A stretch of 32,138 nt of DNA from the NCBI GenBank assembly GCA_021805735.1, contig JAJZEE010000041.1, positions 1 through 32,138 of the forward strand, in the 5' to 3' direction. Origin of the DNA: Bacillota bacterium (GTDB taxonomy: Bacteria > Bacillota > Bacilli > Alicyclobacillales > SLC66). Of the stretch, positions 2,775 through 15,862 are shown piece by piece. Positions within the stretch are counted from its first letter, which is position 1; each line of letters starts with the position of its first letter. Below the pieces are notes generated by a model. That model saw nothing but the letters and a program-made list of their open reading frames with translations, was not told the DNA's origin and did not search any database. A program made the position numbers and the translations under genes.

Positions 2775-2856
2775 CACGATAATGGCAAACTTAGGGAAAC
2801 CTAAGGACGCAAAGCCATGGGTCTACAGCCGTAAGGCCAGGATCGCCAGGCTGCCG
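2775..2856 (+). ncRNA. Cyclic di-GMP-I (GEMM-I) riboswitch aptamer
   Basis: The RNA has the defining GEMM-I parts in order. GGCAAAC (2784-2790) opens a stem CTTAGG/CCTAAG capped by a GAAA tetraloop at 2796-2799. The strictly conserved GGACGCAAAGCC (2805-2816) follows, then GGGTCTAC and a second hairpin with a GTAA loop that ends in ATCGCCAGGCTGCC. This matches the class I c-di-GMP aptamer, in which the GAAA loop docks on a receptor in the second hairpin. It senses the second messenger that usually controls the switch between motile and attached life. The next ORF starts 46 nt downstream. Whether ligand turns expression on or off cannot be read with certainty. Confidence 0.92.
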
Positions 2857-2900
2857 AAGCGAATAGACTTCGGCGAATACCCCATGAGGCGGTGATTCGC
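2854..2900 (+). promoter_or_regulatory. Riboswitch expression platform hiding the Shine-Dalgarno
   Basis: Two hairpins follow the aptamer. The first pairs CCGAAG (2854-2859) with CTTCGG (2868-2873). The second pairs GCGAAT (2873-2878) with ATTCGC (2895-2900), plus ACC (2879-2881) with GGT (2891-2893) and CC (2882-2883) with GG (2888-2889). It thus locks up the Shine-Dalgarno GAGGCGG (2886-2892) of the GTG start at 2902. GCGAATA occurs twice (2859-2865 and 2873-2879), so either copy can pair with ATTCGC, a likely basis for switching. This is a pairing analysis by eye without an energy calculation. Confidence 0.65.
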
Positions 2901-3151: not shown

Positions 3152-3811
3152 ATGAGGCGGATGTCCACCGAGATGGCTATCCATGCGATTGAAGACGAGA
3201 GAAAAAGACTGGCTCGGGACATTCACGATGGTCCCGCGCAACTGTTGACGAACTTGACGATGCGCCTCGAAGTCGTCAAGGAGATGGCGAAACGGGATCC
3301 GTTGACGGTGTTGCCCGAAATTCAAAAGGTCCAGGAACTGATGCGCGGTTCGGTGAGTGAACTGCGCCGCATGATCTACGACCTTCGCCCCGTCGACATT
3401 GCGGAGAAAGGTCTTTCAGGCGCGCTGCTCGAATACGCGGACCGCTGTAACTACCTGCTCCGAATTCCCGTTGTCGTAGCGGTTGACGCGACCTGCGACG
3501 TGCTTGCGGCGCCGTACGCGGTTGCGGTGTTTCGCGTCGTGCAAGAGTGTATTACGAACAGCTTGCGGCACGCGCGAGCGCAACGAGTGGATGTCTCTGT
3601 GACCGTAGCGGAAGGTGTGCTAAGAGCAGTCGTCCGCGACGACGGGTCCGGTTTTCCTTATGGAGACACGAGTCAACATAAGGGATTCGGACTTCTTGGC
3701 ATCGAGGAGCGCGCTCGGTTGATTGGCGGCGAGGTGCGAGTGCAGTCGAAAATGGGTCAAGGTACGGAAGTGGAGTTGACGATGAGAATTGCCACGTATG
3801 GCGCAGAGTGA
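3152..3811 (+). CDS. DegS-like sensor histidine kinase without sensor domain
   Basis: This soluble kinase of the HisKA_3/HATPase family (219 residues) has the H-box ERKRLARDIHDGPAQ with phospho-accepting His25, an N-box QECITNSLRHA (Asn136), a G1 box VRDDGSGFP and a G2 box GFGLLGIEERA. It would autophosphorylate and pass phosphate to a NarL-type regulator, very likely the one encoded at 5448. It has almost no sequence before the H-box and no membrane segment, so input must come from a partner, and the TPR protein encoded next is the obvious candidate. ATG 3161, about 10 nt behind GGAGG, is an equally good start. The gene overlaps or abuts the next one. Confidence 0.88.
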   Translation: MRRMSTEMAIHAIEDERKRLARDIHDGPAQLLTNLTMRLEVVKEMAKRDPLTVLPEIQKVQELMRGSVSELRRMIYDLRPVDIAEKGLSGALLEYADRCNYLLRIPVVVAVDATCDVLAAPYAVAVFRVVQECITNSLRHARAQRVDVSVTVAEGVLRAVVRDDGSGFPYGDTSQHKGFGLLGIEERARLIGGEVRVQSKMGQGTEVELTMRIATYGAE

Positions 3812-3821
3812 GGGGATTGCG

Positions 3822-5327
3822 GTGTCGTCGGCCATCGAGATCGGCAAAGAACTGTTGGCGCGGGGATTACCGTATGCGGCTATTGAGTATCTGGAGGACA
3901 TGCTAAGCGCCGAACGGGATCCTGAAGCGTCCGCGTTGCTGGCTAATGCTCTGGGATGGTGTTTCACGGATCTCGGGAATCCGGAACGAGCCGCGGGTTC
4001 TTTCACTCGTTCTAAGGAAATCGCGCGGGCAGGGCATTTGCCTGACATATTCGCCATTCGACCGCAGATCAATCTGGCATTGACTGAACTCAGACGCGGG
4101 AACCCGACGGTGGCCTATGAGGAAGCGAGCGAGTTGCTCGAAGACGTCAAGGAGCAGCCGGAGGAGACGCAGGGGCTCATATACGTCAATCTGGCGGCTA
4201 TCTGCGTAGCCTTGGAGCGTTACGACGAAGCGGAGATTTTCGCGTGCAGGGGCGCGGTGTTTTTGGATGGCGGCGGAGGCGGCTTCGCGTTTGGGGCTTA
4301 TGTGAATCTGGGCGTAGCGTTGCTTGCGCTCGGCGACCCGGCGGCGGCGCGGCAGGCGTTTGAAGTGGCGTATGATCGCTCGGATGGGCAGTCGTTTCAC
4401 GCCGCGCTCGAACTGTTGCGGCTGCATCTCCTCCACGGCGACGATCAACTCGGCGCGATGTTGCTGCGGGACGCGCTCGATGGGGTATGGACGCAGTTAA
4501 TCGAATTTTCTCGCGACGATCTTGGCCGGATCTGCGAAGTCCTCGGGTATGGGGCGGCGATGGCGGGCGACTCGCTGCTTGCGGACCGTTTGCTTGAAAA
4601 GGCGGAACTGTACTTTGGGAGAGTGGGATGTTGGCGCGAATATCGAGCGCTTGGGCTGGAACGCGAGCGACGGCAACAATCGCTTACGGTCGCGGCGGCG
4701 ATGGCTGGGCGGTCTGAATGGCCCGACGCGTTGCCAATGGCCCGCATGCTGCACGCGTTTATGGGGGCGCTCGACACGCTGGAGCAAGTTGCTCCCACCT
4801 ATTTTGCAAAAGCGCAACAGGTCGCCCGACTTGCAGTGCAAATCGGGGATGCGCTCGGGTTCCCGACGGAGTCGCTGCGGGCAGCGTACATAGGGGCGCA
4901 ACTGCTGGGATGGCGGGTGGACGCGAGCGTGCGCGCGGATGAGCGGGAAGCGCTGATTGAGGCGTATGGGCAGATCGGGCCCGGCTGGTTGCAGGCGCAT
5001 GGATTTCCGGATACTGTACTCACCATAGCCGCATACGTGGAAACACTCGATCAAGGCGCGAAACTGCGCGACTTTTCATCGCAGAAGGCGCTGCCGGAAC
5101 CCTCCCCTGAGACGGCCGCGATATGGGCTGTTGTTCGATCGGCGGAGAGGTATGTCCATCACGTGCGAACCCGTGAACGCCATTCGTCCGCGATGCGTTG
5201 GCTGGATCGGGATCCGGGCGCGTGGAAACCGGCTGTTCGCGCCTTGCGCGCGCTGGAGCGAAGCGCCGTCGGAGCGGAAGGACTGCGCGGGAGTCGCAAA
5301 GGGCGAACGTCCGTGTCTTGTACGTGA
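3822..5327 (+). CDS. TPR protein with degenerate HD-GYP-like C-terminal half
   Basis: GTG 3822 is preferred because GAGGGG lies 6-7 nt upstream. TTG 3789 and ATG 3798 in the same frame are alternatives that would overlap the kinase gene. Residues up to about 300 form TPR-like helix pairs, for example PYAAIEYLEDMLSAE, NPERAAGSFTRSKEIA and LALGDPAAARQAFEVA. From about residue 305 the pattern follows an HD-GYP domain: YFAKAQQVARLAVQIGDALG, then LRAAYIGAQLLGW where the family has LLHDIGK, then YGQIGPGWL. The metal-binding HD residues are gone, so phosphodiesterase activity is unlikely. It sits between a sensor-less kinase and its probable response regulator, so a role as input or scaffold is inferred. 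The HD-GYP relation rests on pattern and spacing only. Confidence 0.65.
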   Translation: MSSAIEIGKELLARGLPYAAIEYLEDMLSAERDPEASALLANALGWCFTDLGNPERAAGSFTRSKEIARAGHLPDIFAIRPQINLALTELRRGNPTVAYEEASELLEDVKEQPEETQGLIYVNLAAICVALERYDEAEIFACRGAVFLDGGGGGFAFGAYVNLGVALLALGDPAAARQAFEVAYDRSDGQSFHAALELLRLHLLHGDDQLGAMLLRDALDGVWTQLIEFSRDDLGRICEVLGYGAAMAGDSLLADRLLEKAELYFGRVGCWREYRALGLERERRQQSLTVAAAMAGRSEWPDALPMARMLHAFMGALDTLEQVAPTYFAKAQQVARLAVQIGDALGFPTESLRAAYIGAQLLGWRVDASVRADEREALIEAYGQIGPGWLQAHGFPDTVLTIAAYVETLDQGAKLRDFSSQKALPEPSPETAAIWAVVRSAERYVHHVRTRERHSSAMRWLDRDPGAWKPAVRALRALERSAVGAEGLRGSRKGRTSVSCT

Positions 5328-5447: not shown

Positions 5448-6182
5448 TTGACCACACATACGCGGTTGTTGCTGGCTGATGATCAGTCCTTGTTTTTGAG
5501 CGGCCTGGAGGCGCTGTTGTCTATGACAGGCGAATTTGTGGTGGTCGCGACGGCGCATACCGGCGCTGAAGTGCTGACCGCCCTTCACGATCTGTCCGCT
5601 GACGTTCTGCTGTTGGACATCGGAATGCCAGACCGATCAGGGATCGAAACCGTCAGGCAGCTTCGCGACATGGGCGTGATAACTCCCGTGCTGATCGTCA
5701 GCAACTATGATGGCAAGGACTACGTCTTGCAGGCAATTGCCGCAGGGGTGCAGGGATATGTTCTAAAAGACGCGACGATCGACACAGTGCGCGCGGCTGT
5801 GCGCACTGTTGCGGCCGGCCAGCGGTATGTCGACCCACGACTGGTGGGCTATATGATGGACGCCCTCTTTGCGGAAGCGAGTGAGACGCAGCGAGCGGGG
5901 AGTTCCAGGGAAACCGCCGAGCGGCCAGACGCTGACCTCGCTGTGTCCGTAGAAAACGCCGCTTTTGCGGAACGGGTTGCGCTGACACAGGTTCTCACTC
6001 CGCGGGAACTGGAGGTGCTCAGGTTGATGACGCAGGGGTGCAACAACAACGAGATCGCGGAGACTCTCTTTATTAGTCCAAAAACGGCTCGCAATCACAC
6101 GACGAACATTTTGCAGAAACTCGGGGCGCCAGATCGAACGAAGGCAGTGGTTATCGCTCTGTCGGAGCGATTGGGAGTGTAG
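5448..6182 (+). CDS. NarL/FixJ-family response regulator (DosR/DegU class)
   Basis: A receiver domain with the acidic pair ADDQ near the N-terminus, phospho-acceptor Asp57 in LLLDIGMP and the conserved Lys in YVLKDA is joined to a LuxR-type helix-turn-helix from about residue 183 (LTPRELEVLRLM, NNEIAETLFISPKTARNH). The total of 244 residues is usual, with a longish linker. TTG 5448 is chosen because GGGAGGGG lies about 7 nt upstream and the receiver then starts at the proper place. The upstream kinase has the matching HisKA_3 type, so the two should be a pair. The regulator gene is directly followed by the pilus operon, whose leader holds a palindrome of DosR-box geometry. Control of the pilus genes is inferred from this. 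Confidence 0.9.
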   Translation: MTTHTRLLLADDQSLFLSGLEALLSMTGEFVVVATAHTGAEVLTALHDLSADVLLLDIGMPDRSGIETVRQLRDMGVITPVLIVSNYDGKDYVLQAIAAGVQGYVLKDATIDTVRAAVRTVAAGQRYVDPRLVGYMMDALFAEASETQRAGSSRETAERPDADLAVSVENAAFAERVALTQVLTPRELEVLRLMTQGCNNNEIAETLFISPKTARNHTTNILQKLGAPDRTKAVVIALSERLGV

Positions 6183-6253
6183 TGTCCGGAACCGGGTGAG
6201 CGAGCGCGCAGGGAAGTGCCGCCCGTGACCATCTGCGCGATCCATGGCGGCCA

Positions 6254-6281
6254 GGACGTCCAAGATAGGACTATTGTCCTA
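6254..6281. promoter_or_regulatory. Candidate response-regulator operator upstream of flp
   Basis: TAGGAC-TATT-GTCCTA (6266-6281) is a perfect 6-bp inverted repeat. Its core GGAC-N4-GTCC has the same half-sites and spacing as the mycobacterial DosR box, and DosR belongs to the regulator class encoded just upstream. A second, spacer-less palindrome GGACGTCC lies at 6254-6261. A weak promoter (TTGTCC at 6274, TAGGAT at 6299, 19-nt spacing) overlaps it. Binding is inference. Confidence 0.5.
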
Positions 6282-6310
6282 CGCGCAAACGGCGAAAATA
6301 GGATTCGCGC

Positions 6311-6337
6311 CCCTGTCTTAAACAGGGTCTTTTTTTT
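6311..6337 (+). terminator. Intrinsic terminator or attenuator in the flp leader
   Basis: CCCTGT (6311-6316) pairs with ACAGGG (6322-6327) around a 5-nt loop and is followed by TCTTTTTTTT. It lies about 130 nt after the response-regulator stop and 67 nt before the flp start. It may end the regulator transcript or, if the pilus promoter lies upstream near 6270-6304, act as an attenuator of the pilus operon. Confidence 0.8.
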
Positions 6338-6403
6338 ATGCTTGGATCACAACAGCAAGAGGATAGCTTTCAAAACACCATACCTTCAAAGGGGCGATCA
6401 AGG

Positions 6404-6628
6404 GTGAAAGGGATCAAAGAGAAGATGGCGGGGATTTATCATTCAGTTGCAGTCAAGGCGGGCGAAATGGTCGTACGCCTGCGGAATGATGAAGAGGGTC
6501 AGGGGCTCGTCGAGTACGGTCTGATCATCGGGCTGGTGGCGATCGCGTTGGTTGCTGCGCTCGTTGCACTTAACGGCGGACTCACAACCGTCTTCAGCAA
6601 CATTACGACCACGTTGAAGGGTTTGTAG
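6404..6628 (+). CDS. flp: Flp/Fap-type pilin
   Basis: This small type IVb prepilin has the hallmark EEG/QGLVEYGLIIGLVAIAL: a charged leader, a Gly for cleavage by the prepilin peptidase, Glu at position +5, Tyr at +6 and one hydrophobic helix. Mature Flp subunits build the thin adhesive Tad pilus. GTG 6404 is chosen because AAAGGGG lies 9 nt upstream and the leader length is then normal. ATG 6425 is possible, while ATG 6338 directly behind the terminator T-run is unlikely. It is the first gene of the pilus operon, and the peptidase gene follows after a strong stem-loop. Confidence 0.93.
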   Translation: MKGIKEKMAGIYHSVAVKAGEMVVRLRNDEEGQGLVEYGLIIGLVAIALVAALVALNGGLTTVFSNITTTLKGL

Positions 6629-14833: not shown

Positions 14834-15862
14834 ATGATCGGTCTGAGAGGGAGTTTAGATAGTGTGATTCGTCTGTCTGGCGAAACGGCGCAGTCGTACC
14901 TGCGCATCAGTGGGACCACTGAGCAGGATATCATTCTAACGGCAAAATATCGGGCATTCTTCGAAAATATCGTCGATGAAATCGTCGAGCAATTCTATGC
15001 CACCATCTTCTCCATCGACCGATTGCAACAGAATTTCCTGCAATTCGGGAACCTGGAACGAAACAAGGGAACGCAGCGGACGTATTTCCTAACGTTGTCG
15101 CAAGGAAAAATCGATGATGACTATGTCGAATTGCGAAACCGAATCGGAAGGGTTCACGCGCGCATCGGACTTCCGCCGGAAGACTTCACGGCCTTGTACC
15201 GCTTCTACTTGTCAGAAGTGATCAACAGAATTCCCGAGATCGACGGCATCACTCTGAACGACGCGTTGGCTCTCTCGTCTGCGCTCACCCGCCTGACTCT
15301 GTTTGACATTTCACTGACATTGGCGCAATACAATCACGACGAAACAGAGAGACGAAAAGAGTCCATCCGACAGGAACGAATCGATCTGGCGCAATCGCTC
15401 TTCACCACCGCGGAACAGCTCCGCGCGATCACCTCTGAGTTTGCCAGAAATTCGGCAGGGCTCGCAAGCGCCAGCGAAGAAACCGTGACGCTCTCGCAGC
15501 GCCTGCTTGACAAGATGAGTGTATTGGAAACGATCAACGGAATCATTCGCGAGATTTCTGCGGAAACTCATCTGCTTGGTCTGAATGCGGCCATTGAAGC
15601 GGCGAGAGTCGGAGAACAGGGACGGGGATTCAACGTCGTCGCAGAGGAAATCCGGCGACTCGCGGGACGGGCGAAGCAGTCTGTGCGCGAGATAACGGCG
15701 CAGTTGTCCGGACTGACAAGCGATGTGCCGCAAATCATGGCCCAGTCCGAGTCCGTGGCGGCCACCGGGGAAGAACAAGCAGCCGAGGCGGAAGAACTCG
15801 CGGCCATCGTTGAGCAAGTAATCATTCTCGCGAGCAGACTCAAAAATAATTCGCAGGTATAG
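14834..15862 (+). CDS. HemAT-like globin-coupled sensor / methyl-accepting protein
   Basis: Residues of about 25-185 form a globin-coupled sensor domain (protoglobin type), with the proximal haem ligand His108 in [15 protein letters not shown]. The C-terminal part has the chemoreceptor core [27 protein letters not shown]. No membrane segment is present, so it is a soluble aerotaxis-type O2 sensor that would talk to CheW/CheA. At 342 residues it is shorter than B. subtilis HemAT because the signalling hairpin is short. ATG 14834 has a poor Shine-Dalgarno. GTG 14864, 11 nt behind AGAGGGAG, is an equally likely start and keeps the whole globin fold. Confidence 0.87.

Follow-up and report, generated by a model that had tools for sequence, protein, structure and literature searches.

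PprB of Pseudomonas aeruginosa is a regulator of the LuxR type. The available text of two reports places the flp-tad locus of P. aeruginosa under the control of PprA-PprB, with the response regulator binding upstream of flp and of other Tad genes, and gives the putative PprB site as GGCTAATAC (PMC8623646, PMC6821963). In Mycobacterium tuberculosis, the DosR box has the 20 bp consensus TTSGGGACTWWAGTCCCSAA, and several boxes are present at some promoters (PMC2275270). The base contacts of DosR are made by Lys179, Lys182, and Asn183 (PMC4082495).

The window analysed here is a stretch of 32,138 nucleotides from a member of the Bacillota, in which flp opens a Tad/Flp pilus cluster downstream of a response regulator gene. 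The features are listed by window position.

2734-2762, + strand: sigma-A promoter of the kinase-TPR-regulator operon, with the consensus TTGACA-N17-TATAAT
2775-2859, + strand: c-di-GMP-I-GGC riboswitch aptamer heading this operon (Rfam RF03167, 72 bits, E 2.1e-15)
3152-3811, + strand: histidine kinase gene (Pfam HisKA_3 and HATPase_c, 219 aa)
3789-5327, + strand: TPR-repeat protein gene (Pfam), between the kinase and regulator genes
5448-6182, + strand: LuxR/NarL-type response regulator gene (Pfam Response_reg and GerE; helix KTARN), the presumed box binder
6254-6261, no strand: palindrome GGACGTCC, unconserved and probably a chance occurrence
6266-6281, no strand: box 1, predicted distal operator, TAGGACTATTGTCCTA (TAGGAC-TATT-GTCCTA)
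6299-6314, no strand: box 2, predicted degenerate promoter-proximal operator, TAGGATTCGCGCCCCT, centre about -42.5
6311-6337, + strand: intrinsic terminator, CCCTGTC-TTAAA-CAGGG followed by TCT8 (stem 6311-6327, U-tract to 6337)
6337-6342, + strand: predicted -10 hexamer of the flp promoter, TATGCT, exactly 36 bp from the GG of box 2
6388-6394, + strand: Shine-Dalgarno sequence of flp, AAAGGGG
6404-6628, + strand: flp pilin gene (Pfam PF04964, 40 bits), with a GTG start

By analogy, PprB control of flp-tad is the closest functional counterpart of this arrangement. It differs in its phylum and in its putative site, which contrasts with the GGAC-N4-GTCC found here, and the available text of the same reports does not mention a c-di-GMP riboswitch (PMC8623646, PMC6821963). 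The likeness to DosR/DevR lies in the binding motif. Both operators have the GGAC-N4-GTCC core and both regulators are of the NarL type. The recognition helix KTxRN is present in all 16 aligned regulators, so that K, R, and N stand at the positions of Lys179, Lys182, and Asn183, the change at 182 being conservative. The window box agrees with the core GGGACTWWAGTCCC at 11 of its 14 positions and with the consensus at none of the six outer positions; the boxes of a sister family (GGGACAAAAGTCCC) fit the core better. The target here is a pilus cluster, and the 219 aa kinase has only HisKA_3 and HATPase, with no sensor domain recognised by Pfam, whereas the partner kinase of DosR is the haem/GAF sensor DosS/DosT. 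Over its full length the regulator is nearer to those of the VraR/LiaR type, its best solved relatives being 4zmr, VraR, DesR, ChrA, and NarL, with DevR (3c3w) ninth. The assignment to the DosR class in the preliminary description thus stands for the motif and the recognition-helix residues and is not supported for the full-length regulator and the sensor kinase. Membership of a DosR system is not supported; the box resembles the DosR box as a putative binding motif. A limited search of the open literature yielded no account of this operator.

The palindrome TAGGAC-N4-GTCCTA is where it had been reported, and its exact sequence occurs once in the window and once in the 3.76 Mb genome, in both cases at 6266-6281. 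Its placement is likewise borne out, the palindromes and terminator being flanked by the regulator gene and, from Pfam, the Flp pilin gene. Of 2000 dinucleotide shuffles of the interval between these genes, just 4 contain any GGAC-N4-GTCC. There is no enrichment of the motif across the genome (41 sites, compared with 87 for a reversed control), so its significance lies in its position and conservation. A scan for GGAC-N4-GTCC ahead of other surface genes had been proposed; among the sites in this genome with AT-rich or similar spacers, none precedes a recognisable surface gene and most are intragenic.

Loci with flp or tadZ beside a response regulator gene were compared, 16 in all. Seven are from the family of the window (f1), three of these from one genus, and the others are from a sister family of the same order (f2). 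Boxes, spacings, conservation, the regulator helix, and the riboswitch were all computed. An exact GGACN4GTCC is present in the interval between the regulator and Tad genes in 11 of the 16 loci, from both families (f1: the window, G001, and G013; f2: G035, G036, G037, G038, G041, G049, G053, and G056), and in 0-2.2% of dinucleotide shuffles per interval. Three further f1 loci (G004, G007, and G014) have TAGG-N8-CCTA, which has the same width as the box. Within the genus, the palindrome is intact in G001. G002 has TGAAACTATTGTCCTA in its place, with the right half of box 1 alone and the left half lost; all three members share the right half ACTATTGTCCTAC as well as the stretch GAAAATAGGATTCGCG. 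In G002 the regulator gene and flp have been split by an insertion, and the block from about 6239 onward remains with flp, as expected of an operator and promoter of flp. The insertion (L203 2652-4190) contains what the translations suggest is a PIN-domain-like toxin and HTH antitoxin-like gene pair, near 56-nt direct repeats that are 89% identical and contain T8. In another f1 genus, in which flp is apart from the regulator gene, flp is preceded by a c-di-GMP riboswitch, and no box was observed. A search of 300 genomes of the class for the tandem GGACAAA-N16-GGACA returned matches outside the order that resemble chance, in numbers similar to the control.

It is the geometry of the boxes that locates the predicted promoter. 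In f2 a distance of 23 bp separates the first two GGAC in 8 of 8 loci, and in all nine loci the promoter-proximal full box is followed, at exactly 36 bp, by a -10 hexamer (TATGAT or a similar sequence); the next-best offset yields a -10 in two of the nine. When this rule is carried over to f1, a -10 is found at 36-37 bp in 7 of 7 loci, and 36 is also the best offset when computed within f1 itself. The f1 box 2 takes the form TAGGA[T/G]-N4-xxCCCT, immediately upstream of the hairpin, and the hexamers at the end of the U-tract are TATGCT in the window, TATGAT in G001, G007, and G014 (36-37 bp), and TACACT in G004. G013, which has no U-tract, has CAGGAGTATTGTCCCT 36 bp ahead of TAGGAT. The chance product for this geometry in four genus representatives is about 7e-6, a rough value, since U-tracts are biased towards T and the f1 box 2 anchors were picked visually with knowledge of the -10 rule. 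The composite GGACAA-N30-TATGAT has at least nine exact matches among the matches listed for 16 genomes, and six of the nine are at Tad loci.

The spacings between box 1 and box 2 in f1 are 24, 33, 35, 45, and 46 bp, with 33 bp in the window, and they are in helical phase (R 0.91, p 0.007, from one value per genus plus the 23 bp). The hairpin stems vary from 6 bp in the window to about 12 bp in G004, G007, and G014 while the distance from box to hexamer is constant, so the size of the terminator alone does not set this distance. Box 2 is degenerate in f1, its right half being CCCT only, and TAGGATTCGCG is kept at this site in all three members of the genus. The hexamer TATGCT matches the consensus at four of six positions and overlaps the U-tract, and no -35 element is present at the predicted promoter. 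Inverted-repeat boxes at a fixed distance from the -10, with one centred near -41.5, are the pattern of class-II-like activation, and box 2 falls within about a base pair of this. TAGGAT at 6299 was considered as a -10 and rejected because its spacing varies between genera.

Transcription of flp is predicted to start at ~6349. The Shine-Dalgarno sequence of the pilin gene is kept in G001 and G002, where the start codon is ATG, and takes the form AAAGGGG or AAAAGGGG in G004, G007, and G014. An alternative start of flp at the ATG at 6338, which is in frame and has mostly synonymous differences, was rejected on two grounds: in several genera 6404 is preceded by AAAGGGG, and in G002 the matching ATG lacks such a motif ahead of it. 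The leader at 6338-6403, an open frame from that ATG, has 95-97% identity in the genus compared with 76-83% for flp.

A second palindrome, GGACGTCC, had been noted beside the first. It does exist, separated from box 1 by the four nucleotides AAGA, but at that place G001 has GGGCGTCC and G002 has GGACGCTC, so its role as a partner is not supported. By our own estimate an 8 bp palindrome arises at 1/256 per position, and because about one is therefore expected in such an interval, GGACGTCC carries little weight. The degenerate box at 6299-6314 is the likelier partner site of box 1.

The preliminary description had left it to promoter position whether the terminator before flp is an attenuator. 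From the spacing of the boxes, the -10 falls where the U-tract ends, and the terminator is thus upstream of the predicted flp start. It most likely closes the message of the kinase-TPR-regulator operon. A flp start downstream of 6337 with a different operator had been set against the original reading: the predicted start does lie beyond 6337, but with no change of operator. The terminator is found in six of the seven f1 loci (also in G001, G002, G004, G007, and G014), which would suit an attenuator, with flp transcription starting upstream of 6311 and the terminator or a 5' hairpin setting the amount that reaches flp. Such transcripts could come from read-through of the regulator operon or from TTGTCC-N19-TAGGAT at 6274-6304. 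The latter is the top-scoring promoter of the interval, and its spacing is constant in the three genus members. However, its score of 7.0 is like that of shuffles (mean 5.8, sd 2.0), compared with 17.0 for the promoter of the kinase-TPR-regulator operon, its spacing is lost in other genera (10 nt in G004, 24 nt in G013), and a start there would put the hairpin at +1. The predicted fold of a 111-nt stretch is more stable than those of shuffles (z -2.3), yet no antiterminator is conserved among the three genus members and Rfam returned no aptamer there. In G013 the hairpin has no U-tract and the box geometry is retained nonetheless. Attenuation of flp by this terminator is therefore rather unlikely. 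A true attenuator is possible in the sister family: in G035 and G041 (L187 about 4060-4150, L186 about 4340-4400), the sequence from the box promoter to tadZ includes a long stem-loop, TGTCCTACC..GGTAGGACA, with T's after it.

It is quite improbable that the palindrome works at the RNA level, as a hairpin in a structured leader or riboswitch, instead of as a DNA operator. A TAGGAC/GTCCTA stem does appear in the predicted fold, and an alternative UCCUA:UAGGA pairing can be drawn in several family members. Against this, the closing helix of the fold is unconserved, and G002 has lost the stem (TGAAAC/GTCCTA) while flp and the remainder are kept. In the sister family these boxes precede the predicted promoter and are therefore outside the transcript that starts there. 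A structured RNA was also rejected on folding, the z of -2.3 for the chosen 111-nt stretch becoming -0.5 for the longer leader, and Rfam returned sub-threshold chance matches only on 6150-6450. A chance palindrome beside an unrelated terminator, which the lack of genomic enrichment and the mostly intragenic sites would allow, is highly improbable, given that the boxes recur at fixed spacing in the corresponding interval of the related genomes.

The palindrome is thus very probably one member of a pair of sites, predicted from sequence, where the response regulator docks at the start switch of the pilus cluster. The probable reading is a two-box operator driving flp-tad from near 6349, with the terminator upstream insulating flp. 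We infer binding, cooperativity, activation as opposed to repression, and the start site. Phosphorylated dimers of the LuxR/NarL-type regulator encoded upstream would bind box 1 and box 2 cooperatively, box 2 being 33 bp downstream on the same helical face with its centre near -42.5. The bound regulator would recruit RNA polymerase by class-II-like activation for transcription of flp-tad from near 6349, and the terminator at 6311-6337, between box 2 and the -10, would stop the kinase-TPR-regulator transcript and insulate flp. More tentatively, the terminator may be nested within an activator-dependent promoter, as part of its spacer. The 5' arm of the hairpin and the right half of box 2 overlap, and the -10 takes its first base from the U-tract, so that upstream transcription, regulator binding, and flp initiation might compete on ~40 bp; this is a speculative extension of the model.

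Regulators of f1 and f2 have about 25% identity. Those beside the Tad cluster in f2 (L186-L188, L195-L200) have degenerate receivers, with no DD motif near the N-terminus, which suggests phosphorylation-independent control. Because the regulators are this distant and the f2 receivers degenerate, we infer that the operator is common to both families. Paired GGACAAA boxes also precede a short stretch without an evident gene in G040 and G036 (L190 minus about 3702-3892; L189 minus about 4002-4200), which includes a segment rich in C and T and ends in a terminator-like sequence, with TATAGT 36 bp from the box in G040. Rfam gave no match for these stretches, and no close relatives of them were found in the order; from their sequence they resemble genes for small RNAs controlled by the same regulator.

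The regulatory unit also includes a c-di-GMP-I riboswitch, although the palindrome and terminator element is itself no riboswitch. In f1 (the window, G004, and G013) it is ahead of the kinase gene, and in f2 (G036, G038, G040, G049, and G053) it is between the box-driven promoter and flp. The riboswitch therefore changes place between the families (window 2775-2859; L191, L194, and L196-L200). Shortly past the Tad cluster of the window is a gene for a protoglobin-MCP chemoreceptor (14834-15862), a haem-based sensor encoded close to the pilus genes.

The analysis provides a testable promoter model for the Tad/Flp pili of this group of Bacillota, which specifies a regulator, a pair of operators, a -10, and a start and includes a spacing rule that is common to two families. 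If there is competition on the ~40 bp, pilus expression would depend on how upstream transcription terminates. The circuit appears to have been rewired, with the riboswitch on the regulator operon in one family and on the pilin transcript in its sister family.
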